From: Methanothermobacter sp. | GTDB lineage: Archaea; Methanobacteriota; Methanobacteria; Methanobacteriales; DSM-23052 | Length of the DNA stretch: 64,000 bases | Reading direction: 5' to 3' | NCBI GenBank assembly: GCA_030055615.1 | Contig: JASFYN010000002.1 | Location: 140,001-204,000 of the forward strand | Translations under genes and position numbers: made by a program | Shown: piece after piece, positions 2,430 to 52,216 of the stretch | Position numbering within the stretch: position 1 is the first letter of the stretch | Layout: each line of letters opens with the position of its first letter | Notes under the pieces: generated by a model | The model's database searches: none | What the model was told of the DNA's origin: nothing | Seen by the model: only the letters and a program-made list of their open reading frames with translations

Positions 2430-2624
2430 TTATCTACTCTCTAATTCCTTTATGCGCTCGTTAAAATATTTTATGATCTCATCCTTAGCCTTTTCAAGCT
2501 CCTCTAATTCCCCTTGAAGAACCGGCCCTTGATCTGTCTGAACTAGCTCCACATCATACTTCTCCATAATCTTTATAATCATACTACTTGTTATCCCATG
2601 TGGCAATCTCATCTCATATAACAT
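2430..2624 (-). CDS. Small conserved hypothetical protein
   Basis: A 64-residue, highly charged protein (many Glu and Lys) ending in a predicted long helix (ELEKAKDEIIKYFNERIKELE). It sits 11 bp downstream of tyrS on the same strand and probably belongs to the tyrS-nmd3-aIF2-beta transcript. I do not recognise the family with confidence; the compact alpha-beta start (MRLPHGITSSMIIKIMEKYDVELVQ) suggests a small folded domain rather than a chance ORF. It ends two bases from the tmk stop in a convergent arrangement. Confidence 0.6.
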   Translation of the reverse strand: MLYEMRLPHGITSSMIIKIMEKYDVELVQTDQGPVLQGELEELEKAKDEIIKYFNERIKELESR

Positions 2625-2635
2625 TGCATAACCAC

Positions 2636-3604
2636 CTATTCAAGGTATGTCCTAGCGGGTTCGAAAATCTCTATCAAGTATTCGCTAACAGCATTTTTAA
2701 GGTCAAGTGGGTGTAATTCGCCGCTGGAATATGCTTTTATGAGCTCTTCACGGCCAAGTTCAAGGTCGCCTCCGAACTTCGCAGGCCTTTTTATCAACAT
2801 CCTATCATACATTGGTAGTATAAGATATTCAGCCATCTCTATTATAGGGTTGCCTTTTATCTCCTTCATTGGACAATAGCTTTTCTTTATCTTTTCCCTG
2901 ATAACTTCTGGTGGATCGTCAATTGCTATAAAGTTGCCTTTACTAGATGACATTTTCTCCCCACCATCTGTTCCATGGAGTAGGGGTGTGTGCATACATA
3001 CTGGTGCATTGTAGCCAAGCCTTGGGAGGTTTTCCCTGGCAAGCATGTGTATTTTTCTCTGCTCCATACCACCCAATGCAAGATCTACTCCTAGGAATAT
3101 CATGTCAATGACTTGCATGAGGGGGTATATGACCTCCGCGACCTTTGGATTTTCAGCTTCCCTTGTTATCTGCGCCATACTCCTTTTAGCCCTCGCTAGT
3201 GTCGTTATAAGTGACAATTCATAGAGTTTATGTGTGTACTCTTCTTTTGTCTGGAAACTTGAACCTAATATGAACTCTGTATCATCTGATAGTCCAAGGG
3301 CCTTGAAGCATCTCTTATTGTATTCTGCCATTTCTTTTATTTTTTCCATGGAGCCTTTGCTATTAAGGTGAGCATGATAATCTGCTAGGAGCACCTTTAC
3401 TTTGAATCCTATTCTTTGAAGGTCTAGGAGTTTCATTACTGTGATGGCATGGCCTACGTGTATTTTCCCTGATGGTTCGTAGCCGATATATGCGACTGGT
3501 TCTTTTTTCTGGAGTTTTTCCCTGAGTTCTTCTTCGGTGATCAATTCTATAGTGCCTTTCTTCGCGATTTTTATTTTTTCTTCGATATCCACTTTTATCA
3601 CCAT
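2636..3604 (-). CDS. tyrS: Tyrosyl-tRNA synthetase
   Basis: Charges tRNA-Tyr with tyrosine. The 322-residue length is that of the short archaeal-eukaryotic TyrRS, which lacks the bacterial C-terminal S4 domain. The class I signatures are present: an HIGH-like HVGH (GKIHVGHA, near residue 50) and KMSSS ([10 protein letters not shown], near residue 213). Its start overlaps the 3' end of nmd3 by 7 bp, so the two are translationally coupled. Confidence 0.96.
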
Positions 3605-5089: not shown

Positions 5090-8000
5090 TTAGACTATTT
5101 TTACGTAGCCCCTTTGGGGTTCGAATATTACTCCTTTTTCCTGTAAAAATCTTAGGATTTCTTCTACTTTTTCTTCACTTATATTGTATCTGTCTAGCAT
5201 TTCTGATTTAAGGATGTTGGTTGGTGCTTTTCCTCCGTATTCTTCTTCGAGTTCTTTTATTAATTCTATTAATATGTTGAATTTGTCTCTTTCTGATTTT
5301 GGGGTCCTCCCTTCTACTTTGTCTATGTCGATTTTGCCTGTTTCTGGGTCGTAGCCTACTTGTTTGAGGCAGGATTTCGCCAGTCTTATGGCTCTTTTAG
5401 CATCTTCTGCTTCAACTTTATTTTTGAGTTTTACTCTGGCACTTGCCTCTGCTAGTCTTATTATGGCTTCTAGTTGGCGTGCTGTTATCGGTACTGGTGA
5501 GTCTTCGTCTGTTGCGCTGCTTCGCATTGAAACATAGAATTCTTCGAGTACTTTCATTGCCTGGTCTGTTAGTTTGGGGTGAATATTCTTTCTTGCATAT
5601 GCTATATATTTTCTTAGTAATTCTGGTTCGATTTCTATGGGTAGTGTATCTTCTTTGTGGGTTTTGAGGATGTGTCTTGCAAGTTCCCTATCTCTTTCCT
5701 CGTGTGGTTTGTCCTCTATGACGAATATTAGATCGAACCTTGAGAGTATGGTTGATGGTAAGTCTATTTGCTCTGCTATGGACTTGTAAGTGTCGAATCG
5801 TCCGAATTTTGGGTTGGCTGCTGCTAGTACTGCGCAACGTGAATTTAGGGTTGCCATTATACCCGCTTTAGCTATACTTATTGTGTTATGTAGTACTAGA
5901 CCATGTGAGACAAATAAGTGGTATGGTTCAACGGTTATATCATAAACCCATTCTGAGTCGGTGTTTTCGATCATTTCAACACTTTTGACTTTAATAAAGC
6001 GTACATTTTTGGGAGATTCTAACTTTTCAATAAACTCTGTTGGTGGTTTATCCTCCATTAGTCGATGGCGCCATGTAGAATATGGGGTTTTCAATTTCTC
6101 TGTTAATTCTTTAACTGTGAGTAGTCTCCCAGCAGCTTTAATATTGATCTTCTCGGTTGTGGCCATCCCATGTAGCGGTCTATTTGGTAAAATATTGTTA
6201 TTTGATAATCTTTGGGTTTTAAGTTTCTCAATTCTTGGATCATCGATTATCTGGGCGAATCTTTCCATGTTGTCTTCGCTGATTATGACCTTATAATTTC
6301 TACCTTCTTTGATGATGTAGGAATAAATTCCAAAGATTAAAAGTAGATCTTGTAGATCTTCAGCCATTTTAGGCGAAACTGTACAATAACCTGCCTGGTG
6401 GCCATCCACAAAACCATCAACTTTGTAATAAGCGTTTAAAAACGCTCTTTGGGCATCGGCAGAACCCATCAAGATCTTATCTGGAACTCTTCTCATATCT
6501 GATGGTAATAGAAGATCAGGGAATTCATCAAAATTGGCTACCCTAAGAATATATGCTGTTTTCTCGCCTTCTTTTTTTATGGAGATATTATATTCTATTT
6601 CTTGTTCTTCTAATATTTTTTTAAGTTCTTTAATTAATTTTTCATCAGCACTTGTGAACTCAGCCCCATTATAGTATTTTGAGAGGGCGAATCCTAAAAA
6701 TTTAGCAGTAAAGGTGTCAATATCCCCTTTAGTGGATATATTGTAACTATTCACTCCTAGGACTAATGTATCTTTTTTGATTTCATCTGCACGCACTGTT
6801 TTAATCTCACCATCCCATATTACAACTGGATGTTCGGGTGTTACAATAATGCTCCTACCATTTTCAAATTTTATTTTTATAAAATTATCAGGGGCTTTAT
6901 GCCGGCTTATCCTATCAGCAGTGACTGGAATTATCCTTAAATTTTCCAAGTCATATGCCATTACCCTAAGTTCATCTGTTATCAGTATTTCAGTGTCTTT
7001 TCCATGGATTATCTCATTTTTTCTTTTTTCCATGAGTTTGTCTACGAGATCGCCTATCCTAGCTTTCCTTCCATCTGCGAGAAGAATCTCGAAATCTTTG
7101 TGATAGCTTTGCTGCTCAAGGGCCTCGTGTATGGCTGAACGATCTTCTTCTCGCATTTTATCCAATTCATCGACGCAGACAATTCCACGGTCTCCTAAGA
7201 CCAATGCACCTGCTTCAAGTGACCATCCACCCAATTCGTCTCGAACTGCAGCAGCCGTGTTATGAACCACTATACCGTTCGCTATGAAGCTATGAGATTT
7301 TTCGACTGTCAGATCATAAACATACTCATATGGGGATGTGATAATCTCAACTTTCTTTATCTTTTCAAATAGGATATCAGAATAAGCTAAGTTTTCTAAA
7401 TATTGAAGTTTTTCTTTAACAGTCCTTTCTTGAGCTTTCAGATCATTTAAAATCTGGAAAATGGATGTGCGAACTTTTTTATCCTTTATTCTTTTCGCGA
7501 TTTGGACAAGGATTTTAAAAGGTACTTTTCTGCTCCATGTAATTTTCCCAAGCTTTGATCTGATATTGTTGGGTATCTCTATTTTAATATTTTTAATCGA
7601 TGCTTTTGATTTTAGGTTTCTGATAACCTTTTGAAGCGATTTTCTTGAAATGATACCTTTTTCTTCAACTGAATATCTAAGGTATGGGTCATAGGTTTCT
7701 TTAGCGCTTATTCCATAGAAACTTCTTATTTCTTTTATAATTCCTCCAATTCCAGGGATTAGATCCGCTCTTGTACTCTTTCTTTTACTTAGTAATTCTT
7801 GAAGTTTATTTTTCTTATTAGGGTGTTCAGATCCAATTAATGTGGTGAACTTTTCAATGTTCTCTCCAGAAATTCGGATTATGTAATCATCTCTAATGTT
7901 TCTTTTTACCCTTCTAGGTTCTCCCTTTTTTAAATGTGCTATTATTCCAAACCTTAAGAATGCAAGTTGGAGTTTTTTAGCCAATTTTTCATCTTTACAG

Positions 8001-10054
8001 TAAAAATTGATGGAAGGTGAACCATCTTTTATGATGACTTTTCCATTGGAATCGAATAGTCCCCTGATAAATGCTGCAAGTTCTTTATTTGGAAGGGAAA
8101 ATATAATATTGTAGTTGGGTGATCCTGGAATGCCAAGCTTGTTTAAAATGTGTGCGATAATTCCTGAATTGAACATGACAGTTGACACGTTTTCTTTTGG
8201 CTCTATCCTGAAAAGCTCTTTGACAATAGATTTGAATTTTTCTCTAAGTTTTTTATTGTTATTTGAGAATCTTAGAGAATAAAGTCCATCGGGTGTAACT
8301 TTAATATCCCCGTCCACAACCATCAAGCCTGCAAAATACAAAAATTTCTCATTCAAATATTTAGGAAGCTTTATTGGACGTTCATATTGTGAAAAACCCT
8401 GAATTTTATCAGTTAACTTTTCCAAACTGTAATTGGCTTTTCTAGCAAGTTTTAAGAGCATGCTTAAACTAATAATTGGGGTATTAGTCCAATAATGACT
8501 ATTTTGAGAGAATTCTTTAAAGTTTTTCCCTTTTTTAATTTTCTTGATAAGTTTTTTTACTAAAGCTTCCACTCCATGGACCATTACATTATTCATGTCC
8601 TTGATAAGTTCAAGTGTTAAAACATTTTGCCCATTGTGCTCTAACTTCCTTGTCGTTACCACATGATCGTCTTTTTCAAGTTTTTTACATTCTTTCCACT
8701 TTAATTCTCCATTTTCAAAGCTTAAAATTTTTGTTTCTGGTGTTAGAGTCAATTCTTTCCCAGTTTGTGTTGTTATTTTAATCAGTTTTTCTGGAGCTTT
8801 AAGCTTCCAAATTTTATCAGAAACTTTTGAAGATACTTTTGTTGGGTTGATAGTTTGAATTTTAATCGGTTTTTTAAGCTTGGATACATAGATCCCCTTC
8901 CGATATTCGATGGGCTCGCTGAGGTTTTTTTCAACGAAATCCCCAATTTCAAACGCCCCTTTATCTGTAAAAATCATGCTTTCAGGAGCTACGCACAATC
9001 CAACGCCGGTTGTGCCTTTACCGCTCGTATATATGCCTCTTGGGGCCAGTTTTGAAACATATTTAAGCATCTGGGATTTTCCGATACCAGGGTCTCCTAC
9101 TATGAGTATGTGTATGTCCCCTCGGAGTCTTGTTTTATCATCTAATTCTTTCCCTGTTCCCCCAAATAATTGTAGTGCGATAGCTTCTTTGATTTCACGG
9201 TAGCCATAGATTGATGGGACTGTGGATCTTACTATCCTATCATAGATGTTGGGGTCTGCTGCGAGTTTTTTTATTTTTTTCTCGTCCTCGGCTGTTATCT
9301 GTAATTCTTCGAATTCTTGTTCTAGGAATTCCGCGTAATTTCCATATATGAAGTTTTTAAATCGTTTTGTCCTATCATCCCTTATTGTTCTGAGTATGCC
9401 TGTGACTCTTACCACGTCTCCTGGTGTTAAGGTGTCCACGAGGTCGTCTTCTAATACTATTGTTATCTGTCTGGGCTGTTCACCACCTGAAAGGTTTTCC
9501 AAAGGCTCTTGTAATTTTAAATTTTGTGTGTCAAGGAATTGGGAATCTTCTTGTAATAGTCTGAATGAACGACCCCTACATTCTGGGCAGAATGATGGTT
9601 CTGCTAAAATATTACTGGATTGTGGCACCTCCTGTGGGTGTCCACAACTTCTACATTCAAATGCGGCCTTTAATATTCTTGGACGTATTTCATCAACTTT
9701 TCTCACAATACCATCAACTGCAACTAGTTTACCTATGAATTTACTCCTCAGATCCCTTAATGGGATAATATTAGTGATATTTTTGAATCTTATGTTGAGA
9801 TCCGCGTCCATTCCCACTGGGTTTATGTTTTGAATGGCTTTCTGAGCTGTTCTTATTATGGTGTCAGGTTTTTCTATTAAAAGATCCGCAAGGTCTGGGT
9901 CGAACATTTCAAGGTCTCTATAGTCTATTTCAATAGATCTCACACTAGGATATTTCTCTAGGACCTCGAATATTTTATCCTTATATTCTTTTGTGGAAAA
10001 GAATTCTTCAAATTTAATAATGGGTGTTTTTGTTTTCTCTGCTACCTTCATCAT
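5090..10054 (-). CDS. mcm: MCM replicative DNA helicase carrying two inteins
   Basis: Replicative 3'-5' helicase. The ORF of 1654 codons contains two in-frame inteins; removing residues 354-932 and 983-1390 leaves an extein of 667 residues, the usual archaeal MCM size. The extein has an N-terminal domain with a zinc motif (CRSC...CPEC, residues about 134-159), a beta-hairpin/OB region, Walker A (GDPGIGKS), Walker B (VCVDELDKM), an arginine finger (SRFD) and a C-terminal winged helix. Both inteins interrupt the AAA+ core: the first in the stretch between Walker A and B, the second just after Walker B. Helicase activity therefore depends on splicing. ATG 10054 is followed by a second Met. Confidence 0.96.
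5885..7108 (-). other. Intein 2 in MCM, 408 residues, Ser-initiated
   Basis: Begins with Ser983 ([13 protein letters not shown]) after extein EALEQQ and ends with VLHN (Asn1390) before extein Thr-Ile-Ser. Block B is intact (TPEHPVV, with the His). The C-terminal splicing blocks are normal ([16 protein letters not shown]). The middle is an eroded DOD endonuclease: block E is recognisable ([11 protein letters not shown]) but the block C equivalent ([12 protein letters not shown]) lacks the acidic residue, so cleavage activity is doubtful. Splicing would use Ser as the first nucleophile and Thr as the second. Confidence 0.9.
7259..8995 (-). other. Intein 1 in MCM (CDC21-a-type site), 579 residues
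   Basis: Begins with Cys354 (CVAPES) and ends with His-Asn (IVVHN, Asn932) before extein Thr933. Block A and C-terminal blocks F and G ([13 protein letters not shown]...VVHN) are clear. The block B TxxH motif reads TPET, so Thr441 replaces the usual His. A LAGLIDADG-type endonuclease region lies inside: block C as FAGLMVVDG (acidic residue Asp581 kept) and block E as [10 protein letters not shown], where Asn670 stands at the usual acidic position. About 170 residues between the endonuclease and the C-terminal splicing blocks look like an extra helical region. Boundaries come from the continuity of the MCM extein. Confidence 0.9.
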
Positions 10055-19815: not shown

Positions 19816-21210
19816 TTGGATTATTTGAAAAAATCGAAGTTTAACAAGCTCATAATATTCATACCAGCTGTCTTCGCATTCACACTAGCGCTAATACCCA
19901 CAATAAAATATAATTGGCCATTAAGCTGGGATATCTACTATCATATACATAATATGAAACTTTACAGTGAAGGCATAGTTTTCTGGGATAATTTAACTGC
20001 AGCCCCTTATGGAAGGCCGATATTTTATCCCCCACTTTTCCATCTATCTCTATTATCCATTGTGAAAATTTTGAATATCAGCCCATTTTTAGCCGCGAGA
20101 TTAATACAACCATTTTTGGCATTATTTGGGGTTTTTTCATTTTCTTATGTTTCAAGAAAACTTTATGGGAATACTATAGGATTCCTCACAGGTATGTTTA
20201 TAATCTTAAGCCCCCTATTCCAGAGGATGATGCTCCCAATCCCAGAAGCCATGGCAATTATATTTTTACCTATTCTCGCCTATTTTTATTATCTTTCAAT
20301 TGAAAAAGGTGACAAGAGATATGCACTAGTAGCTGGTTTCATATGGGGTCTAATTCTCCTTACCCATCTACTATCAGCTATAATCATATTATCTGTGATA
20401 ACACTCACAACTATCATCCTGAAAATCAAAGGTGAAAAAAATCTCAAAGAGTACTGGATAATTATAATAGTAGGTTTAATCACAAGTAGTCTCTGGTTCA
20501 TCCCCATTCTCATGAAATATGGTTTTGTATTCAAATCACCACCAACCCAAAAATTACCATTTGGAGACTACATAAAATTTATAGGCCCAATTCCATTCTT
20601 CTTAGCATTGATAGGGCTCATTAACATCATAGGGGATTGGGAAAAAAAGGACATGATGATATTCTCTTGGTTTATCAGCGTGACATTCATAAGTGTAATT
20701 TATATCTTTGGCGTTAATGTAATTACAGAGAGAATAATCTACTTCAATTTGTTCCCAGTAGCAGTACTAGCGAGTTTAGCCACAAAAGCCTTAAATTTTG
20801 AAAAAAGGAAATACGCTCTCTTCTTGTTGATAATAGTGGTTTTATCATTGTATAATGGATATGTAACTGCCAATTCCACAAAACCTTCAATCTCTGCTAC
20901 CGCAATTGAAGTTGCAGAATGGTTCAAGTATCACGGAGATCATGAGAGAGTTGTTGTAGCTGCAGATTATCATCTGGAGCCCATAATAGTATCTATTTCA
21001 GATCAGCCAGTAGCCGGTGGAGGCTATGCACCAGGTACTGTTAAATCTATCAATAGGAATAAATACATAAATGGAAAATTCACAAAGGAAGAAATGATAC
21101 GAGAAAAAATAGGCTATATAATCCTTAAAACTAATATGACTCCACCCCCATACTCAAGACTAGTATACATGAATAATGATTTCAAAATCTACGAAAGGTC
21201 GATAACATGA
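19816..21210 (+). CDS. Multi-spanning membrane protein, GT-C-like glycosyltransferase candidate
   Basis: A 464-residue protein with about ten transmembrane helices and a short soluble C-terminal domain (from about residue 375). The first extracytoplasmic loop carries an acidic motif (SWDIYYHIHNM) like the D/E-containing loop of GT-C lipid-linked-sugar transferases, and LTHLLSA follows at residue about 185. It likely transfers a sugar from a polyprenyl phosphate for surface glycans, but the acceptor is unknown. It starts at TTG 19816 with a GGGGGTGA SD five bases upstream. The 3' end overlaps the phosphohexomutase gene (ATGA), linking it to sugar-nucleotide supply. Confidence 0.7.
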   Translation: MDYLKKSKFNKLIIFIPAVFAFTLALIPTIKYNWPLSWDIYYHIHNMKLYSEGIVFWDNLTAAPYGRPIFYPPLFHLSLLSIVKILNISPFLAARLIQPFLALFGVFSFSYVSRKLYGNTIGFLTGMFIILSPLFQRMMLPIPEAMAIIFLPILAYFYYLSIEKGDKRYALVAGFIWGLILLTHLLSAIIILSVITLTTIILKIKGEKNLKEYWIIIIVGLITSSLWFIPILMKYGFVFKSPPTQKLPFGDYIKFIGPIPFFLALIGLINIIGDWEKKDMMIFSWFISVTFISVIYIFGVNVITERIIYFNLFPVAVLASLATKALNFEKRKYALFLLIIVVLSLYNGYVTANSTKPSISATAIEVAEWFKYHGDHERVVVAADYHLEPIIVSISDQPVAGGGYAPGTVKSINRNKYINGKFTKEEMIREKIGYIILKTNMTPPPYSRLVYMNNDFKIYERSIT

Positions 21211-22574
21211 AAAAACTATTCGGTACTTTTGGTGTTAGAAGGATTGCAAACAAACAATTAACACCAGAATTTGCCTCAAGATTATCAGCAGCATTCGGCT
21301 CTCTCATAAATGGAAAAGTTGCCGTGGGTGGTGATACCAGGACCTCTACCGCCATGATAAAACATGCCGTTATAGCAGGCCTACTATCTAGCGGATGTGA
21401 TGTTGTAGATCTTGGGATACTCCCAACCCCTACTGTACAATATGCTGTTAGAAGATACTATGATGCAGGGGTTATCATCACAGCATCCCATAACCCCCCA
21501 GAATACAATGGGATAAAATTCGTCGATGAACACGGTATAGGAATCAGAGAAGAATTAGAAGAAAAAATAGAGAAAATCTTCTTCGAAGAAAAGGCTGAAA
21601 GAGTCCCATGGGATAGTATAGGTTCCACAACCAAAAATAGGAGGATTATCAAGGAATACATAGATGAAGTTATAAAGAGAGTCGATGCCGATATTATAAG
21701 GGAAGCTAATTTTACTGTTGTAGTTGACTGCGGATCAGGGGCTGCCTCATATACAACACCATACCTTCTAAGAGAGCTCGGATGCGAAGTCTTATCATTA
21801 AATTGTCAACCAGACGGCTTTTTCCCAGGCCGAAACCCCGAACCAACCCCAGAAAACCTGAAAGATCTTATGGATGCTGTTAAAGCCAGTGGGGCCGACC
21901 TTGGCATAGCCCATGATGGCGACGCTGACAGAACTATCTGTATAGATGAAAAGGGAGATTTCATCTTCGGCGATAAAACCTTCGCATTAGTAGAGAAGAA
22001 AATGTTAAAAGAAAACAAAGGAGGCCTGATTGTAACTACAGTAGCGACCACTTCAGCTATATATGATATTGCAAGAGAAAACAATGGAAAGGTTATAACA
22101 ACCCCAGTAGGCGATCTAATCGTGGCAAGAACCCTCAAAGAAAAAAAAGGAATCTTCGGCGGCGAAGAAAATGGTGGTCTAATATTCCCAGATTTTGTAT
22201 ATGGCAGGGACGGGGCCCTCTCAGCCGCCAAGATACTTGAGATCATGGCCGAAGAAGGCAAACCAATCTCTAAGCTAGTGGCCGAACTACCAAGATATTA
22301 TTCCGAAAAGATGAAAATAGAATGTCCAGATAAACTTAAACCCAAGGTAATGGCCGCCGTCCAGGAAAAGGTTGAAAGAGACCCTAAAATCGACAGGATA
22401 GACACCACAGATGGCGTTAAAATATTTAAAGAAGATGGGTGGGTGATCATAAGACCATCAGGCACAGAGCCCATATTCAGATGCTTCGCGGAAGCCAAAA
22501 GCCAAGAAAAAGCCACCCAAATGGCCAAATGGGGTATCAGTATCGTTAAAAGGTCAATCAATGAGATAGGCTAG
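21207..22574 (+). CDS. glmM: Phosphoglucosamine mutase / phosphohexomutase (copy 1)
   Basis: Interconverts hexose 6- and 1-phosphates; in archaea such proteins are usually phosphoglucosamine mutases feeding UDP-GlcNAc, or phosphomannomutases. The 455-residue protein has the phospho-Ser loop (TASHNPPEYNG, residue about 91), the metal-binding DGDADR loop, the sugar-binding GGEENGG loop (the bacterial enzymes have GEESGH-like) and the phosphate-binding RPSGTEP near the C-terminus. It is translationally coupled to the GT-C-like gene. A 152-bp tract (21780-21931) is almost identical to the paralogue at 33.2 kb. Confidence 0.9.
   Translation: MKKLFGTFGVRRIANKQLTPEFASRLSAAFGSLINGKVAVGGDTRTSTAMIKHAVIAGLLSSGCDVVDLGILPTPTVQYAVRRYYDAGVIITASHNPPEYNGIKFVDEHGIGIREELEEKIEKIFFEEKAERVPWDSIGSTTKNRRIIKEYIDEVIKRVDADIIREANFTVVVDCGSGAASYTTPYLLRELGCEVLSLNCQPDGFFPGRNPEPTPENLKDLMDAVKASGADLGIAHDGDADRTICIDEKGDFIFGDKTFALVEKKMLKENKGGLIVTTVATTSAIYDIARENNGKVITTPVGDLIVARTLKEKKGIFGGEENGGLIFPDFVYGRDGALSAAKILEIMAEEGKPISKLVAELPRYYSEKMKIECPDKLKPKVMAAVQEKVERDPKIDRIDTTDGVKIFKEDGWVIIRPSGTEPIFRCFAEAKSQEKATQMAKWGISIVKRSINEIG
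21780..21931 (+). repeat. Near-identical tract shared with the second phosphohexomutase gene
   Basis: The first 89 bp (21780-21868) are identical to 33212-33300, and after a short variable patch the match resumes to 21931 with one further mismatch. It codes for GCEVLSLNCQPDGFF... through the DGDADR loop. Confidence 0.92.
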
Positions 22575-24986: not shown

Positions 24987-26117
24987 TTGAAGGATAATTA
25001 TCATATCATGGGAATAGATGATATCCTCTTACATGATGAGACAATATTCAGGAACTTACAAGCCTTTGACCCTGATTATATCCCTGAAAATTTTAAGTAC
25101 AGGGATTCGCAGATGGAAGCTCTTGCAGTTTGCATAAGACCTGCCTTAATGAATGGGAGGCCCATTAATGCTGTTGTACTAGGAGCTTGTGCAACTGGTA
25201 AAACCACAGCCATAAAGAAACTCTTTGAAATGGTTGAAGCTAGCTCGGAGAAAGTTATATGCTCCTATATTAACTGTCAATTGCATACTACACGTTTCGG
25301 CATATTTTCACAGATATACTATAAGATCTTCGGATATTATCCTCCAGAGACTGGGGTTCCATTTTCTAGGATATACCATGATATAATGCATAAACTTTCA
25401 ACAGAGGATAAGGCCCTTATAGTAGCATTAGATGATGTTAACCATCTATTCCATGACAAGAAGGCTAATAGGATATTCTATGATATTCTAAGGGCATATG
25501 AGACTTTTGATAATGTTAGAACGGGTATATTCGCTGTATTATCGGATATTGAGTTTAGATATGCTCTTGATAAAAATGTTAACTCAGTGTTCATCCCCCA
25601 GGAGATAATATTCCAACCCTATAGTTACGACGAAATACATGACATATTAAAGGACAGGGCCAGGATAGGATTTTATGATGGTGTAATTTCTGATGAAATA
25701 ATAGAGGAGATAACAAATTTAACATTTGAAACTGGAGACCTAAGATATGGTATAAACCTTCTAAGGGTCTGTGGGAACCTCGCCGAGGCCGAAGCCTCCC
25801 CCAAGATAAAAAAAGCACACCTTGAAAAGGCCATAAAAGACACAATATCCACAAGTTTTAAAGACACAATAAAAAATCTTTCAAAAAATGAAAGAGAACT
25901 CCTAAAGATTATTATAGCTGCTGGAAGTGAAAATTTAACAGCAGGCCAAGCCTATAAGGAGTTTAAAAGGAGAACAGGGTTAAGTTATTCAACATTTAAT
26001 AGGATACTGGAAAAACTTGAATTTTTAAGACTTATTGACACTCCATTCACGGGTAAAGGTAAGCGTGGTAATGCGCGTCTTATAATCCCAAGATTTAAAA
26101 AGGAATTAGATAGATGA
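24987..26117 (+). CDS. cdc6: Orc1/Cdc6-type replication initiator, Cdc6-2 type
   Basis: Origin-binding AAA+ ATPase that helps load MCM. Domain I has Walker A (GACATGKTT, near residue 67) and Walker B (LIVALDDVNHL), in which the usual DE pair reads DD. Domain III is a winged helix (GLSYSTFNRILEKLEFLRLI). The divergence from the canonical Walker B and its separation from any visible origin suggest the second paralogue (Cdc6-2) of this order. The frame opens at TTG 24987 without a clear SD; ATG 25008 is the alternative start. No origin-box repeats were seen in the flanking gaps. Confidence 0.88.
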   Translation: MKDNYHIMGIDDILLHDETIFRNLQAFDPDYIPENFKYRDSQMEALAVCIRPALMNGRPINAVVLGACATGKTTAIKKLFEMVEASSEKVICSYINCQLHTTRFGIFSQIYYKIFGYYPPETGVPFSRIYHDIMHKLSTEDKALIVALDDVNHLFHDKKANRIFYDILRAYETFDNVRTGIFAVLSDIEFRYALDKNVNSVFIPQEIIFQPYSYDEIHDILKDRARIGFYDGVISDEIIEEITNLTFETGDLRYGINLLRVCGNLAEAEASPKIKKAHLEKAIKDTISTSFKDTIKNLSKNERELLKIIIAAGSENLTAGQAYKEFKRRTGLSYSTFNRILEKLEFLRLIDTPFTGKGKRGNARLIIPRFKKELDR

Positions 26118-26271
26118 AGAATAGGCTTACTGGATAATTAGAATTTGGCGTGCTCGCGAAAAAATATACGCCCCCTATTACAAGTAAAAGGACAATGAAT
26201 ATTATGATACAAGCTTCAATGTTAAGGTCTGTGAAACTCCCTTTTTTCTTTGACCTATCCAACCGATACAT
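26095..26271 (-). CDS. 58-residue single-span membrane protein
   Basis: A small gene on the minus strand, converging with cdc6-2 and overlapping its last 23 bp. The protein has a basic N-terminus (RLDRSKKKG), one strong transmembrane helix (about residues 21-38, with IIIFIVLLLVIGG) and a short hydrophobic tail. The start ATG at 26271 is preceded at 6 nt by AGGTGAT, a near-perfect archaeal SD, which is the main reason to call it real. I do not recognise the family. Confidence 0.6.
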   Translation of the reverse strand: MYRLDRSKKKGSFTDLNIEACIIIFIVLLLVIGGVYFFASTPNSNYPVSLFFIYLIPF

Positions 26272-26359
26272 CTTTCATCACCTATGTTATTGTCAAATTC
26301 TGGGAGGATATAATAAAAGAGGAAGAGCATATGAAAACTAATAACAGGTTGGAGAGAAC

Positions 26360-26785
26360 ATGAAGAAAAAATTCGAATACTTTGAAGTAACAGCAGACGC
26401 CGGCTATTGGGCATACGGGTCAACAATAGAAGAGGCCTTCGAAAACGCAGCCCTCGCAATGTTCGAATTAATGACAGACACAAAAAAAGTCCAACCAAAA
26501 AAAGAAAAAAGGATAGAATTAGAAGCCGAAGATGAAATATCACTTCTACATGATTGGCTCGACGAACTCCTATTCCTAAAGGATACAGAATTCCTATTCT
26601 TCTCAAAATTCAAAGTTAATATACAAAAAAATAGAGTATATAGACTAGAAGGAAAAGCCCTAGGTGACAATATAGATCCCAATATACATGAAATCCGCGA
26701 TGAAGTAAAAGCAGTCACCTACCATCTTATGGATGTGCGAGAAGAAAAAGGCCAATATAAAGTTAGAGTGATAGTAGACCTATAA
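26360..26785 (+). CDS. Archease
   Basis: A 141-residue protein chaperone that activates the RtcB tRNA ligase by promoting its guanylylation. The family signature is visible: [16 protein letters not shown] at the start with the metal-binding Asp, WLDELLFL in the middle and VIVDL at the C-terminus. Its SD (GGAGAGA) precedes the ATG by about 5 nt, and it directly precedes rtcB, its known partner. Confidence 0.95.
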
Positions 26786-26811
26786 AAGAACCCTACTTGG
26801 GGTGGATTATA

Positions 26812-28260
26812 ATGAATGTGAAAGATATCTTGATAAAAGTTAGAGAATCAGTATGGGAAGTCCCCACAGATTATAAAGAGTGCATGCGCGTCCCAGGGCG
26901 AATATTCCTAGACGAAGAAGCCTTAAAAGATTTGGAGAAAGGAGCCGTTGACCAAGTGGCGAATGTAGCATGCCTACCCGGCATACAAAAATTCTCAATC
27001 GGCCTTCCAGACATACATTTCGGCTATGGATTCAGTATAGGTGGTGTTGCAGCATTCGACGCCAGCAACGGTATCATAAGCCCAGGTGGCGTGGGATTCG
27101 ATATAAACTGCGGAGTCAGACTATTAAAGACAAACCTAGATCATGAAGAAGTCAAACCAAAAATAAAAGAACTCATAGACACACTATTCAGGAACGTGCC
27201 ATCAGGCGTTGGAAGCAAAGGCAAAATACGACTAAAAGAGGGTCAAATCGATGAAGTGCTAGAAAACGGTGCAGAATGGGCTGTCGAAAACGGATACGGT
27301 TGGGAAGAAGACCTAGAATACCTCGAAGAAAATGGTAAAATGGAAGAAGCCAACGCAACAAAAGTAAGCGAAAAAGCAAAAAAGAGGGGAATACCACAAC
27401 TAGGATCATTAGGCTCAGGCAACCACTTCCTAGAAGTCCAGAGAATAGATAGAATATTCGATGAAAAAGCAGCGAAGGCCTACGGCTTAGAAACCGGGAA
27501 AGTAACAGTACTAATCCACACAGGATCCAGGGGATGCGGCCACCAAATCTGCTCAGACTACCTAAAAATCATGGACAAAGCCTACAAAAAATACAACATC
27601 AAAATACCAGACCGACAGTTAGCCTGCGCCCCAGTAGACTCAGAAGAAGCGAAAGAATACTTCCAAGCAATGGCAGCAGCAGCAAACTACGCATGGGCCA
27701 ACCGACAAATGATAGTACACTGGGTGAGAGAATCCTTCGAACAAGTATTCAACAAAAGCGCAGAAGACATGGAAATGGAAATATTATATGACGTGGCCCA
27801 CAACATAGCCAAAAAAGAAACCCACCCAATAAAAGGCTTGAAAAGGGAAGTTTACGTTCACAGAAAAGGAGCTACAAGAGCCTTCGGCCCAGGGAGAAAA
27901 GAAATACCCTCCAAGTATAGGAAGATAGGCCAACCAGTCATAATACCAGGTACAATGGGAACATCATCCTATGTACTCCACGGGACAGAAACTGCAATGA
28001 AAGAAACATTCGGATCCACCGCCCATGGAGCAGGGCGTAAAATGAGCAGAGCAGGCGCGAAAAGAACATACCGTGGCGAACAAGTCCAAAGGAACCTATC
28101 AAGGATGGGAATATACGTCAGGGCCACTTCAATGCCAGTAATCGCGGAAGAAGCGCCAGGAGCCTACAAAGACGTGGACATAGTCGTTAACACATCCCAC
28201 AAAACAGGAATATCACGACTAGTCGCAAAAATGATACCATTAGGCGTCGCCAAAGGGTGA
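26812..28260 (+). CDS. rtcB: tRNA-splicing ligase RtcB
   Basis: GTP- and Mn-dependent ligase that joins tRNA exon halves through a 2',3'-cyclic phosphate. The 482-residue protein has the metal-binding Cys in [10 protein letters not shown], the [13 protein letters not shown] motif with metal-binding His, [10 protein letters not shown] and the guanylylated His in the C-terminal [12 protein letters not shown]. No intein is present. ATG 26812 is preferred over TTG 26797 because GGGGTGGAT lies at the right distance. It forms a unit with archease; the MTI phosphorylase gene overlaps its stop. Confidence 0.96.
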
Positions 28261-29051
28261 CATACTTGATAGGTATAATAGGTGGAACAGGAATTTACAA
28301 AACACCTCAAAATGTGAAGGTGGAAAAAAAGGTTATAAAAACACCATATGGGGATTCACCCCCAATATCAATTTTCAAAATCCATGGCAAAAAAGTTGCA
28401 TTCATACCCAGACACGCAGAAGGCCACGACTATCCACCACACAAGATAAATTACAGAGCAAACATATGGGCCCTTAAACATTTAGGTGTCAATAAGATAA
28501 TCGCAACTAACACCGCAGGATCACTCCACAAATTCATCAAACCAGGGACAATAGTCACACCAGATGACTTCCTAGATTTCACAAAAACGAGGATAGGAAC
28601 ATTCTATGACAAAAAAACAGTCCACGTGGATGTTACAAAACCATACTGTCCAAAACTCAGAAACATACTACTATCCTCTGGCGAAGTGAAGGATGGTGGA
28701 GTATACGTGTGCACAGAAGGGCCCCGTTTTGAAACCGCGGCCGAGATAAGAATGTTCAAAATCCTAGGAGGCACAATTGTAGGGATGACAGGATTACCCG
28801 AGGCCGTCCTTGCAAGAGAACTTGAAATGTGCTATGCAAGCCTCTGCCTTGTATCAAATTATGCAGCCTCAATCTCAGAGGATAAACTCACCATAAAAGA
28901 AGTCTTCGAGGTCTTGGAGGAGAAAAGGCCCATTATCATAGATATTATAAGTAGGAGTGTTGAAATGATTGATGAATCCCCATGTGAATGTCATGAGACG
29001 CTTAAAGACGCCTCTGTAGATGAAATACTTAAAGAGGAGATGCCAAAATGA
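28257..29051 (+). CDS. S-methyl-5'-thioinosine / thioadenosine phosphorylase
   Basis: A 264-residue enzyme of the MTA phosphorylase/PNP family that phosphorolyses methylthio-nucleosides for methionine salvage. Motifs: [30 protein letters not shown] and [11 protein letters not shown]. The purine-contact position reads VSNYAAS, with Asn where MTA-specific enzymes have Asp (TDYDCW); Asn favours 6-oxopurines, so methylthioinosine is the likelier substrate, as reported for a Methanocaldococcus homologue. GTG 28257 overlaps the rtcB stop (GTGA). Confidence 0.88.
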
Positions 29052-29611
29052 AAGTTTTATTATTATGTGGAAGTCCGAGGAAAGAAAGCAACACTATGAC
29101 AGCCCTAGAAAGATGTGCCGAGAAAATCAGGGAAGAAGGCCTTGAAACCGAGATAATCTCTTTAAGGAGACTGGACATTAAATCTTGTAGGGCATGTCTA
29201 ACCTGTGCAAAGACAGGTGAATGCGCAATAGATGATGGGCTCAACACCATCATCCAAAAAATAAGAGAATCAGAAGGATTCATAATAGGATCCCCAGTAT
29301 ATTTTGGAACAGCACGCGGAGATGTCATGTCAGCACTACAAAGGATAGGGATGGTTTCAAGAGCCTCTGACAATTTCTTAAAATGGAAGGTCGGCGGACC
29401 CATTGCAGTGGCCCGTAGGGGTGGTCATACAGCTACAATACAAGAAATGCTAATGTTCTATCTCATAAATGATATGATAGTCCCAGGTTCAACCTATTGG
29501 AATATCCTATTCGCCTGGGCTGCTGGTGAAGTTGAAGATGATAAAGAGGGTATTGAAACTATAGAACATTTCGGCGAAAACGTGGCTAAACTGATCAAAA
29601 AAATATACTAG
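29048..29611 (+). CDS. Iron-sulfur flavoprotein (NADPH-dependent FMN reductase family)
   Basis: A 187-residue flavodoxin-like protein with the FMN phosphate loop GSPRKESNT at the N-terminus and a compact cysteine motif C-x2-C-x2-C-x5-C (CRACLTCAKTGEC, residues about 47-59), which is typical of the methanogen Isf family that carries a [4Fe-4S] cluster and FMN. GSPVYFGTARGD supplies the flavin ring contacts. It overlaps the phosphorylase gene (ATGA), ending a four-gene run. Confidence 0.9.
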   Translation: MKVLLLCGSPRKESNTMTALERCAEKIREEGLETEIISLRRLDIKSCRACLTCAKTGECAIDDGLNTIIQKIRESEGFIIGSPVYFGTARGDVMSALQRIGMVSRASDNFLKWKVGGPIAVARRGGHTATIQEMLMFYLINDMIVPGSTYWNILFAWAAGEVEDDKEGIETIEHFGENVAKLIKKIY

Positions 29612-29643
29612 ACCTCCATACACCCTTTTTTGGGGTTGTTAAA

Positions 29644-29967
29644 TTGAAGATAGCTGTAGCATCATCTGACGGTGAAAATGTGGACTCGCATTTCGGTAAA
29701 GCATCTAAGTTTATTATTTACGAGTTCGATGGTGAAAAAGCGGAGATGGTTGATGAAAGAGAAATTAACATTGACCCGGCTGAAAAACATCAATGGATGA
29801 AAACATTAGATGCTGTTAGAGACTGTGATATTGTAATAGCTGTCCAGGCCGGATTAAGGGCTAAATTAGGCCTTGAAGAGGCGAGTATAAAACTCGTATC
29901 AGATGAAGGGCCCATAGACGAGGTTATTAAGAGGTATATTAAACATTACAAGTTTATGAAAAGCTAA
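29644..29967 (+). CDS. NifX/NifB-like dinitrogenase cofactor-biosynthesis family protein
   Basis: A 107-residue protein of the small family related to NifX, NafY and the C-terminus of NifB. It has the typical start KIAVASSDGENVDSHFGKA and the FIIYEFDGEK strand. Many methanogens keep such proteins without nitrogenase, where they may carry iron-sulfur or molybdenum fragments. It starts at TTG 29644 with TTGGGGTTG as a weak SD. No other nif genes are nearby. Confidence 0.85.
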   Translation: MKIAVASSDGENVDSHFGKASKFIIYEFDGEKAEMVDEREINIDPAEKHQWMKTLDAVRDCDIVIAVQAGLRAKLGLEEASIKLVSDEGPIDEVIKRYIKHYKFMKS

Positions 29968-29979
29968 ATATTTAAATAT
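29966..29979 (+). promoter_or_regulatory. TATA-like element upstream of eS1
   Basis: AAATATTTAAATAT lies about 100 bp before the eS1 ATG; the gap from 29968 to 30081 is AT-rich and non-coding. GGGTGATATAATG at 30072 is the SD and start. Confidence 0.35.
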
Positions 29980-30081
29980 CTTCTAGTGTAATAATCTACT
30001 TCAATATTTTGGAAAATTAGGACCCAAGTTTTTGTAATTCTAATTTTTCATGGAAAAATTCACAACTTTTAGGGTGATATA

Positions 30082-30669
30082 ATGGCTAAAGTGAGAAGAA
30101 GAAGAGTGAGAGACACATGGAAAGAAAAAAAATGGTATACTGTAACAGCCCCGAGTTTATTCGGAGAAAAAGAGATAGGTGTTACGCCTGCACGTGACCC
30201 TAAACTATTATTTACTAGGAGAGTAGAGGCTACGATGCGAGAACTTACCGGTGATTTTTCAAAGCAATATGTTAAATTAAAATTTGAAATAGAAAACGTG
30301 ACAGGAGACAAGGCAACTACAAAGTTCATAGGCCACGAGGTTACAACAGATTATGTGCGAAGCATGATAAGAAGAGGTACTAGTCGTGTTGACGCTCCAA
30401 AGATAGTGAAAACAAAGGATGGTTACAAGGTAAAAATCCATACCCTCGCCATAACAACCCGGCGAGCCAAATCATCACAGCAAAGATACATGCGTAAGAT
30501 CATCGAAGATAAAATAGAAGAGCTTGCAAGTGAAAAAACCTTTAACGAGCTCGTAGAGGGTATTGTAACAGGGAAAATAGCCTCAGAAATATATCATGAA
30601 GCCAAGAAGGTTTACCCCCTCAAAAGGGTTGAGATAATAAAGACAAGAGTATTAGAGGAACCAGCCTAG
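30082..30669 (+). CDS. rps3ae: Ribosomal protein eS1
   Basis: A 195-residue small-subunit ribosomal protein (S3Ae family) shared by archaea and eukaryotes. It has the basic N-terminus (AKVRRRRVRDTWKEKKWY), the FGEKEIGVTPARDP segment and the RRAKSSQQRYMRKII region. Its SD is GGGTGAT directly before the ATG. It stands alone between the NifX-like gene and the DUF92 gene. Confidence 0.96.
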   Translation: MAKVRRRRVRDTWKEKKWYTVTAPSLFGEKEIGVTPARDPKLLFTRRVEATMRELTGDFSKQYVKLKFEIENVTGDKATTKFIGHEVTTDYVRSMIRRGTSRVDAPKIVKTKDGYKVKIHTLAITTRRAKSSQQRYMRKIIEDKIEELASEKTFNELVEGIVTGKIASEIYHEAKKVYPLKRVEIIKTRVLEEPA

Positions 30670-32647: not shown

Positions 32648-33991
32648 ATGAAGCTTTTTGGAACATCAGGCATCAGAGGAAGATTTAAAGAAAAATTAAC
32701 AGCATCATTATCTTTAAATGTTGGGAAAGCCATCGCAACTTACCTCAAAGGAGAAGGTGAAGTCATAGTAGGATACGATCCGCGCACATCAAGCCAACTC
32801 ATAGAAAACGCATTATCCGCAGGGCTGATGGAAGGAGGATGTAACGTCATCAAAATAGGAATGGTCCCCACACCACTTATAGGATATGCCACTTCCAAAC
32901 TCAAAGCCAAGGCAGGTGTAATGATAACAGCCTCACACAACCCACCAGAATACAATGGAATAAAAGTATGGAACCATAATGGAATGGCATATTCACCAGC
33001 CCAAGAAAAAGAAATAGAAAGAATAATCCATGAAAAAGATTACATTACGGTAGACTGGGACAATCTAGGAAGTTCAGATCACTTGGACATTACAAAAATG
33101 TACATGGAAGATTTACTAGAACATTTTAAAATAAAAACCGATCTTAAAGTAGTGGTTGATTGTGGTTGTGGAGCAGCATCACATATAACCCCAATAATCT
33201 TAAGAAGAATTGGATGCGAAGTCTTATCATTAAATTGTCAACCAGACGGCTTTTTCCCAGGCCGAAACCCCGAACCAACCCCAGAAAACCTGAAAGATCT
33301 CATGAGCATGGTTAAAGCCAGTGGGGCTGACCTTGGCATAGCCCATGATGGCGACGCTGACAGGATGGTAGCAGTTGACGAAAAAGGCAGGTTCGCAGAT
33401 TTTGATAAACTTCTAACACTAATTGCCAAAGAGAAGGGCGGGAAAATCATCACCACAGTTGACGCGTCCATCAGCCTTGATGAATGTTTAAAAGAAGTCG
33501 GAGGAAAGGTTATAAGGACAAAGGTTGGGGACGTGCATGTTGCAGAAGCCCTAATCAGAGAAGGAGGATCATTCGGCGGGGAACCATCCGGCACATGGTT
33601 ACACCCAGAATTTTCTTTATCACCTGATGGAATATTCTCAGCCCTCAAACTCGTTGAAATAGTATCAGAAAAGGGTCCATTATCCAAATTACTCGATGAA
33701 ATACCATCATATCACAATATAAGGGATAAAATACCTTGTCCTGACACGAAAAAAGGTAATGTGATGGAAAAAGTTAAAAAACAATTACCACAACAATTCA
33801 AAGAAAAAATCCAAATAGATAACATAGACGGTACAAGAATATCACTAGAGGATGGCAGTTGGGTACTTATAAGACCATCAGGCACAGAACCATATATAAG
33901 AATCAGAATAGAAGCTAAAAAAGAAAAAACAGCCAAAAAACTTCATAATATGAGCCGATCATTCATGGAAAAAATTATAAGGGGATTATGA
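32648..33991 (+). CDS. glmM: Phosphoglucosamine mutase (copy 2)
   Basis: A 447-residue phosphohexomutase with the phospho-Ser loop TASHNPPEYNG, the DGDADR metal loop, GGEPSGTW for sugar binding and RPSGTEPYIR for phosphate. It lies directly before glmU, which argues that this copy makes glucosamine-1-phosphate for UDP-GlcNAc, needed for pseudomurein and surface glycans. It shares a nearly identical 152-bp tract with copy 1 although most of the remaining coding sequence has diverged. Confidence 0.92.
   Translation: MKLFGTSGIRGRFKEKLTASLSLNVGKAIATYLKGEGEVIVGYDPRTSSQLIENALSAGLMEGGCNVIKIGMVPTPLIGYATSKLKAKAGVMITASHNPPEYNGIKVWNHNGMAYSPAQEKEIERIIHEKDYITVDWDNLGSSDHLDITKMYMEDLLEHFKIKTDLKVVVDCGCGAASHITPIILRRIGCEVLSLNCQPDGFFPGRNPEPTPENLKDLMSMVKASGADLGIAHDGDADRMVAVDEKGRFADFDKLLTLIAKEKGGKIITTVDASISLDECLKEVGGKVIRTKVGDVHVAEALIREGGSFGGEPSGTWLHPEFSLSPDGIFSALKLVEIVSEKGPLSKLLDEIPSYHNIRDKIPCPDTKKGNVMEKVKKQLPQQFKEKIQIDNIDGTRISLEDGSWVLIRPSGTEPYIRIRIEAKKEKTAKKLHNMSRSFMEKIIRGL
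33212..33363 (+). repeat. Near-identical tract shared with the first phosphohexomutase gene
   Basis: Partner of 21780-21931. The first 89 bp are identical at the DNA level including third codon positions; the rest differs at about seven positions. Confidence 0.92.
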
Positions 33992-35256
33992 TGCAAGCAG
34001 TCATCCTAACTGCAGGTGAAGGGACAAGGATGAGACCCCTCACACTCACAAGGCCCAAGACAATGCTACCAATAGCAGGCAAACCCATACTACAATATAA
34101 CATAGAAGCCCTAAAAGAAAATGGCATCAAAGACATTATAATGATAACAGGATACCATGAATCAAAGGTGAAAGAATATTTCGGGAATGGGGACAAATTC
34201 AACGTAAATATAAGATACCATACACAAAAAGAACAATTAGGAACGGCAAATGCAATAAAATATGCCAGAGAATACATAGAGGATGATTTCATAGTACTCA
34301 ATGGTGACATTATCACCGAACCAGCCACTATCACAGATTTAATATCACATTATAAAGAAGCGGACACCACCATAGTACTCAGAGAAGTCAAAGATCCAAG
34401 CCAATTCGGCGTTGTTAAACTAGAAGGAGACAACGTAAAGGATATCATAGAAAAACCACCAGCCAATAAAGCCCCAGGGAACCTGGTAAACACTGGAATA
34501 TACCTATTCAATCATAAAATATTCGATTACATTGAAAGGACAAAAAAATCACCCCGCGGAGAATACGAGATAACAGATTCCATCAAAATGCAAATAAAAG
34601 ACAATTTAACAATAAAAGGCATAATATCCAAAAGGCATTGGGTAGACGTTGGAAAACCATGGGAATTATTAGAAGCCAATGAAACACTCCTCAAAAACAT
34701 AAAAGAAGACATAAAAGGTGAAATAGAGGATAACGTCACAATCCACGGGCCGATCATCCTAGGAGAGGGGAGCATAATAAGATCAGGAACATACATTATA
34801 GGCCCCATCTACATAGGAAAAAATTGTGAAATAGGACCCAACTCCTACATTAGAGCAAACACATCAATAGGAGACAATGTAAGCATAGGAAACGCCGTCG
34901 AAATCAAAAATTCCATAATAATGGATAAAACAAATATAAACCATTTATCCTATGTGGGAGATTCTGTCATCGGAGAAAACTGCAATCTCGGCGCGGGGAC
35001 AAACATAGCAAACCTCCGATTTGACGATAACCATGTAAAAATGACAATAAAAGGGGAAAAAATAGACACAGGCCGCCGCAAAATGGGGGTGATCTTCGCA
35101 GATAATGTTAAAACTGGCATCAATTCCTCCTTTAACCCAGGCATTAAAGTGGGAGTCGGATCCCAAATAGGACCTGGCAGTATAATATCACATGACATAC
35201 CCTCAAACAGACTAGTAATAGTAAATCAAGAACATATAATCAGCAAAAGAGATTAG
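33988..35256 (+). CDS. glmU: Bifunctional GlcN-1-P acetyltransferase / UDP-GlcNAc pyrophosphorylase-like protein
   Basis: A 422-residue two-domain protein. The N-terminal nucleotidyltransferase has LTAGEGTRMRPLT...RPKTMLPIAGKPI and NGDII; the C-terminal half is a left-handed beta helix of hexapeptide repeats (from about residue 250, IHGPIILGEGSIIRSGTYI). Such archaeal Glm/Sugar-1-P enzymes acetylate glucosamine-1-phosphate and transfer UMP or dTMP. It overlaps glmM copy 2 (ATGATG at the stop), fixing its pathway. Confidence 0.9.
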   Translation: MMQAVILTAGEGTRMRPLTLTRPKTMLPIAGKPILQYNIEALKENGIKDIIMITGYHESKVKEYFGNGDKFNVNIRYHTQKEQLGTANAIKYAREYIEDDFIVLNGDIITEPATITDLISHYKEADTTIVLREVKDPSQFGVVKLEGDNVKDIIEKPPANKAPGNLVNTGIYLFNHKIFDYIERTKKSPRGEYEITDSIKMQIKDNLTIKGIISKRHWVDVGKPWELLEANETLLKNIKEDIKGEIEDNVTIHGPIILGEGSIIRSGTYIIGPIYIGKNCEIGPNSYIRANTSIGDNVSIGNAVEIKNSIIMDKTNINHLSYVGDSVIGENCNLGAGTNIANLRFDDNHVKMTIKGEKIDTGRRKMGVIFADNVKTGINSSFNPGIKVGVGSQIGPGSIISHDIPSNRLVIVNQEHIISKRD

Positions 35257-51223: not shown

Positions 51224-52216
51224 ATGGAATTACCAATCACAAAACCATCATACATCTCTTATGGTGATGAAATAGACTTCGATAAATTTTTAGAAGAACT
51301 TGCCAGAAAAAAACATAACGGATTTATCAGAGTCACCCACGCTTCAAGCGAAGGCCATATATTAATCAAAGATGGCATCCCAGTAGCAGCCTCTTATGAC
51401 AGATACATGAAATCAAAGGCCATGAAAAAAATCTTAGAAATCGTTAACAAAATGGACACGATCATAGAACTGTTTGAAGTAAGAGAATCACAAATAGACT
51501 ACATAATAGACATAAACAAGGTATATAAACTTGAACCCACACCAATAAAAGAAGAAACCACACCAACCACAGAAGAAACACCAATAAAAGAAGAAACCAC
51601 ACCAACCACAGAAGAAACACCAATAAAAGAAGAAACCACACCAACCACAGAAGAAACACCAATAAAAGAAGAAACCACACCAACCACAGAAGAAAAAGAA
51701 CATCCAAAAATAACACCAGTAAAAAAAGAAACCACAGAAGAAACATCAACAGAACTTGAAAAAGCTCCCGAAATCGCCGATGAAACAGAAGAAAAAATAA
51801 CAAAACCCCTAAACAGAGAAGAAATAATGAAAAAGTATGGATTGAAGGATATAGACGAAGAAGAAGTTGAAAAAGTCCTCGAAAACTATAAAGGGGGCGC
51901 CATAACTACAATAGATATAGAAAGAGTAGAATTGACTTTAATGAACAAGATAAAAAAATCAATAATAGGAATCCCCGATATAAAAGGTGTTGAAGTTATG
52001 GTTTTCCTAGAAAACATGCCAGAACTTGAAGGAGACATAAAAGTACTTATTGAACGCGAAAACAAAGGATTATTATCCCGTCTAATAGGTGGGACAATGA
52101 AGGAAGAAGAATTAAAAGAACACATTAATGATATAATCGAAATGGAGATCAGAAAGACATTCAGGGGTTATCCTGAAATCATAGAACATTTTAATGTGAA
52201 TATCGAAATACATTAA
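51224..52216 (+). CDS. DUF2226 protein with tandem-repeat linker
   Basis: A 330-residue protein. Residues 1-105 resemble DUF2226/PATAN-like sensor-effector domains ([20 protein letters not shown]...[15 protein letters not shown]). The linker has four exact copies of the 13-residue unit [13 protein letters not shown] and more Glu/Thr/Lys. Residues about 205-330 form a separate globular domain ([20 protein letters not shown]...). DUF2226 proteins are frequent near archaeal motility or division genes; here it stands between sepF and minD, 16 bp before minD. Function is unknown. Confidence 0.7.
51539..51694 (+). repeat. Four exact 39-bp tandem repeats inside the DUF2226 gene
   Basis: Units at 51539-51577, 51578-51616, 51617-51655 and 51656-51694, identical to the base, coding a 13-residue Thr/Glu-rich linker unit. 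Identity at silent positions points to recent slippage expansion. Confidence 0.95.

Follow-up and report, generated by a model that had tools for sequence, protein, structure and literature searches.

Recurrent gene conversion between two phosphohexomutase genes, here called A and B, very probably explains a short shared tract in a gene pair that has otherwise diverged widely. Both genes lie in a 64,000-nucleotide stretch (the window, meaning the whole stretch analyzed) of a 1.49-Mb Methanobacteriales genome. A reading of the window made from the sequence alone had noted the 89-bp match, the similarity continuing past it, and the reading frames of two phosphohexomutase genes 11.4 kb apart, all of which we could reproduce (Table 1). 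It also proposed recent copying from one gene to the other. Copying is upheld by silent-site identity, pairing permutations, and phylogenetic trees, but a single recent event is not, as the conversion spans at least three families, whether continuous or repeated.

Two ancient paralogs share one short tract

The paralogy of phosphohexomutase genes A and B is ancient, with A probably of the phosphoglucomutase/phosphomannomutase type and B probably of the GlmM type. Both score above the curated cutoff of TIGR03990 (archaeal GlmM; 439 bits), and this model cannot tell the paralogs apart. The solved chains nearest to A by phmmer, 9du5 (E value, 1e-156) and 1wqa (E value, 4e-153), are of the phosphoglucomutase/phosphomannomutase type. 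Gene B overlaps a downstream GlmU-like gene, which starts at 33988, ahead of the end of B at 33991; because this neighbor adjoins B, we infer that B is the likelier predicted GlmM of the pair. We take the GGEENGG loop of A and the GGEPSGT loop of B to be at the sugar-binding loop position. Outside the tract, the two proteins are approximately 41% identical and the DNA identity is near 55%, which is the wide divergence that the sequence-only reading had described.

Table 1. Coordinates of the gene pair, the shared tract, and associated features in the window
Feature	Position	Strand	Description
Gene A, archaeal phosphohexomutase	21207..22574	+	455 aa; TIGR03990, 610 bits; all four PGM_PMM Pfam domains
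Conversion tract in A	21780..21931	+	Codons 192-242, domain II; 144/152 bases identical to B
Perfect 89-bp core in A	21780..21868	+	Partner in B at 33212-33300; 89/89 bases
Mismatch cluster within tract	21873..21878	+	DA (A) versus SM (B, 33305-33310) at codons 223-224
DGDADR metal-binding loop of A	21915..21932	+	Marks 3' border of tract
GGEENGG loop of A	22158..22178	+	Invariant alignment columns; outside tract
Region between A and B	24987..30669	+	Pfam: Orc1/Cdc6, 24987-26117; RtcB, 26797-28260; ribosomal protein S3Ae, 30082-30669
Gene B, archaeal phosphohexomutase, GlmM type	32648..33991	+	447 aa; TIGR03990, 562 bits
Conversion tract in B	33212..33363	+	Partner of 21780-21931; 144/152 match to A
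DGDADR metal-binding loop of B	33347..33364		Marks 3' border of tract
GGEPSGT loop of B	33575..33595		Counterpart of GGEENGG in A; invariant alignment columns; outside tract
GlmU-like bifunctional nucleotidylyltransferase/acetyltransferase beside B	33988..35256	+	TIGR03992 Arch_glmU, 576 bits

The 89-bp core is the longest identical run anywhere in the gene pair. Beyond it, the two tract copies mismatch at 21869, in the cluster at codons 223 and 224, and at 21896; the cluster suggests that the tract is made up of patches of different age. In the source genome, amino acids conserved between A and B use identical codons in 45 of 48 cases inside the tract versus 65 of 151 outside (Fisher P = 9e-11), and agreeing polymorphic sites form a run of 19, compared with a maximum of 10 in 5,000 shuffles. 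A third copy of the tract was not found in the 1.49-Mb genome. Conservation of the proteins alone does not yield such identity, because most other conserved motifs of the pair show no effect. Identical codons amount to 8/14 in ITASHNPPEYNGIK, a segment that is conserved in both proteins yet unconverted, 1/6 in VVVDCG, and 0/5 in KLFGT. With 6/8 identical codons, IRPSGTEP is a possible weak exception.

Evidence for conversion across genomes

We compared four groups of genomes: four genomes of the source genus (f1; G000 to G003 among them, with G000 the source genome), eight Methanothermobacter-type genomes (f2), 31 Methanobrevibacter/Methanosphaera-type genomes (f3), and the single genome of Methanothermus fervidus (f4; G100, n = 1). 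Within genomes, the tracts of A and B are 94 to 99% identical in all four f1 genomes and 93 to 99% identical in all eight f2 genomes. In M. fervidus the tract reaches approximately 222 bp, with 98% nucleotide identity, 47/49 silent codons identical, and an identical run of 155 bp. Long-lasting recurrent concerted evolution of the Wang and Chen type calls for five or more species within an order; the shared tract was found in the 12 f1 and f2 genomes and, outside the order, in M. fervidus. The arrangement of the genes varies among these groups: direct repeats approximately 11 kb apart in f1, opposite orientation approximately 6 kb apart in f2, and 398 kb apart in M. fervidus. As all three arrangements convert, conversion is independent of distance and orientation.

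Silent sites distinguish copying from shared constraint. The A-B silent identity within genomes is 0.93 (f1) and 0.89 (f2) in the tract versus 0.46 and 0.43 outside, a comparison that the sequence-only reading had called for and that favors copying. Between genomes, the silent identity of A to B in the tract falls to 0.70 (f1) and 0.68 (f2), which equals the 0.69 to 0.71 of A-A and B-B orthologs; both copies therefore evolve as one locus there. Silent variants of the tract differ from genome to genome, and A and B of each genome carry the same ones. When A and B were re-paired across genomes, the true pairing alone ranked first for the tract, among 24 pairings in f1 and 40,320 in f2, and was unremarkable outside it. 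Runs of agreeing polymorphic sites were in excess in 13/13 genomes (0 of 5,000 shuffles each).

The phylogenies inside and outside the tract conflict. Outside the tract, A and B of the 13 genomes each form one clade with support of 100/100. For the tract, an A clade is rejected (lnL difference, 281.6; P-AU = 5e-91), and eight label changes are required on the best topology. Paralogs are thus closer within a genome than to their orthologs in this segment alone, as is characteristic of concerted evolution. Amino acid changes can follow the same route; in the close relative G003, an N-to-D and an A-to-V change in the tract have been taken up by both enzymes.

Homogenization of the tract was absent in 31/31 f3 genomes examined. 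These genomes show a slight within-genome A-B excess that extends along the entire gene without being special to the tract, a pattern that common base composition would produce. The Methanoperedens-type paralogs (L193 to L200) are not alike in the tract segment.

Anatomy and borders of the tract

In 13/13 converting genomes, the DGDADR metal loop closes the tract on its 3' side, which is where the earlier reading had placed the border in the source genome. Just past this loop the paralogs differ in conserved residues, with TICIDE in A and MVAVDE or similar in B. The 5' border lies near codons 190 to 196 in f1 and f2 and at codon 169 in M. fervidus. In a predicted structure of A, for which the mean pLDDT is 79.8 with lower values in active-site loops, a strand at 194 to 198, a helix at 219 to 228, and a strand at 232 to 236 lead into the metal loop, and the next strand begins at 243. 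By this model, the tract amounts to a single beta-alpha-beta unit within domain II and closes with the metal-binding loop.

Alternative explanations

A variant of the conversion model is that selection for an identical catalytic segment, through coadaptation or the spread of beneficial changes and favored by thermophily, maintains the tract, in place of a neutral seeding effect. We regard this as unlikely, although some observations agree with it: the tract is homogenized in 13/13 genomes of f1, f2, and f4 (f2 and f4 taken as thermophiles from their genome lengths) and in none of the 31 f3 genomes, the G003 amino acid changes enter both enzymes, and Wang et al. suggest selection for such cases (PMC6053082, PMC4632066). 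However, silent sites are homogenized as well, and copying alone accounts for that. Both enzymes also persist in f3 with diverged tracts, and the link to thermophily is weak, with three groups only.

The difference between the converting groups and f3 could also reflect mismatch repair, with antirecombination lost in the thermophilic groups but present and blocking conversion in f3. MutSL halts recombination where sequences have diverged, and hyperthermophilic archaea lack it (PMC4471258), as this explanation would have it. The gene distribution makes it very improbable, however, since MutL and MutS1 are not above cutoff in f3 or in the converting groups, f3 and 7/8 of the converting f2 genomes carry a MutS-like ATPase, and NucS is present across f1, f2, and f3. 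The content of MutL, MutS1, and NucS as the cause of the difference is ruled out by this distribution. As separate observations, the MutS-like ATPase frame (roughly 650 aa) was seen in the majority of f2 and f3 genomes, G004 and G021 among them, and was undetected in f1 and M. fervidus, and the NucS C-terminal family had no match in M. fervidus and was found in all 43 relatives searched.

Purifying selection on protein and DNA together, for example through codon choice or through a regulatory or RNA element within the genes, and with no copying, is highly implausible. No other part of the protein is as conserved as the tract, and the metal loop is invariant, but at silent sites of the tract orthologs have diverged at much the same rate as in the rest of the gene (0.70 versus 0.73 to 0.77 in f1; 0.69 versus 0.65 in f2), genome-specific silent variants are common to A and B, and codons differ in other conserved motifs of the pair. 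The earlier argument that selection on protein alone is insufficient therefore stands, as silent sites are homogenized and other conserved motifs show no effect. Equal conservation of the tract between distant species, which had been named as a refutation, was not found; its silent sites are not conserved between species.

Equally hard to credit is an assembly error in which short reads of the two copies were merged in the repeat, the other refutation named in advance. A repeat of this kind does trouble assemblers, and gene B of G002 has an exact 77-bp tandem duplication in the tract. However, the same pattern stands in single-contig genomes, two of which, G100 (1,243,342 bp) and the f2 genome G016 (1,751,377 bp), are equal in length to the published finished chromosomes of M. 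fervidus (1,243,342 bp; PMC3035299) and M. thermautotrophicus (1,751,377 bp; PMC3087415). The copies also differ at interior positions, and their variants follow the species tree. The G002 duplication itself (L125, about 2490 to 2645, minus strand) breaks the frame and is probably an assembly artifact arising from the tract common to both genes, because 77 bp is a common assembler k-mer.

Recent duplication or horizontal import of the gene or segment in each lineage would likewise give high within-genome identity but can be dismissed almost entirely, as A and B are reciprocally monophyletic outside the tract across 13 genomes, the tract variants follow species, and this segment is the sole part alike.

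Proposed mechanism and direction

Under recurrent conversion, noncrossover events would copy a segment of 150 to 220 bp (codons about 192 to 242) between A and B, presumably by RadA-type homologous recombination with synthesis-dependent strand annealing. In f1, crossing over at the direct repeats would remove the essential-type genes for Orc1/Cdc6, RtcB, and S3Ae and so be lethal; conversion in this genus would thus have to proceed mostly without crossover. The seed may be the longest stretch over which both proteins accept the same sequence, namely, the beta-alpha-beta unit and the metal loop. Heterology would cut short any copies running past the loop, or selection would eliminate them, because the flanks hold paralog-specific residues. 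Each conversion would renew the identity that the next one needs, such that the state keeps itself going, and after the segment had diverged, as in the Methanobrevibacter/Methanosphaera-type family, conversion could not easily restart. We give the seeding and self-sustaining steps roughly an even chance of being correct. More tentatively, and with some doubt, the beta-alpha-beta unit could be viewed as a self-perpetuating conversion island that has behaved as one locus from a time preceding the split of the three converting groups, with its border set by protein function, and that was switched off irreversibly in f3 after the copies drifted beyond recombination range.

With respect to direction, AU tests grouping the f1, f2, and f4 tracts with either the A or the B genes of f3 all gave P values over 0.2. 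In M. fervidus, the 5' extension of the tract in gene B (SYVTPYVLRELGCEV) looks A-like, which hints at a transfer from A to B.

Relation to known systems

Long-lasting conversion of part of a gene has been described both for mtrA (PMC4632066) and for RF1/RF2 (PMC4530459). As with mtrA, archaeal paralogs are homogenized over part of the gene, recurrently and in separate lineages, with divergence elsewhere in the gene; however, the mtrA conversion covers a whole domain in genes of one operon (PMC4632066), whereas the tract described here covers approximately 51 codons within a domain of genes 6 to 398 kb apart. Conversion of domain 3 in bacterial RF1/RF2 is similarly confined to a segment functionally common to both paralogs but comprises two cases and nearly the entire domain (PMC4530459), in contrast to many events with a constant border. 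Recurrence across an order, in at least five species, resembles the cases of Wang and Chen (PMC6053082). Neither phosphohexomutases nor Methanobacteriales appear in the main text of that paper, which lists 26 prokaryotic cases. Sulfolobus acidocaldarius, an archaeon without MutSL, also undergoes short-patch gene conversion with short nonreciprocal tracts (reviewed in PMC4471258), although this was observed in experimental crosses of near-identical alleles rather than in diverged paralogs. A literature search combining phosphohexomutase and gene conversion found no paper, with most subscription papers outside its scope. The A/B pair is a further case of a known kind of conversion, notable for its unusually small tract and constant border.

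These observations have implications for how recombination shapes paralogs. A patch of 150 bp can stay subject to recombination between chromosomal sites, probably for a very long time, in genes otherwise so dissimilar, and most changes in the catalytic loop segment thereby become common to two enzymes of differing type. Phosphohexomutase gene trees can be misled by the tract. Whole-gene phylogenies would be expected to miss a tract of 150 bp, and such patches may be common because whole-gene surveys would overlook them. The nonconverting f3 family provides a natural comparison for what starts and stops conversion.

Other features of the gene pair and the window

A second, very short stretch in common surrounds RPSGTE (22440 to 22471 and 33860 to 33891). 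Here, A and B of G003 both have an unusual P-to-S change after GTE, and A and B of G001 both use CCC for the P of RPS, which weakly points to a possible second mini-tract. Elsewhere in the window, the MCM helicase gene at 5090 to 10054 (1,654 aa) probably holds two inteins, because intein splicing and LAGLIDADG domains occur in two stretches each. A reading frame at 51539 to 51694 contains a 39-bp in-frame repeat encoding a Thr/Pro/Glu-rich sequence.
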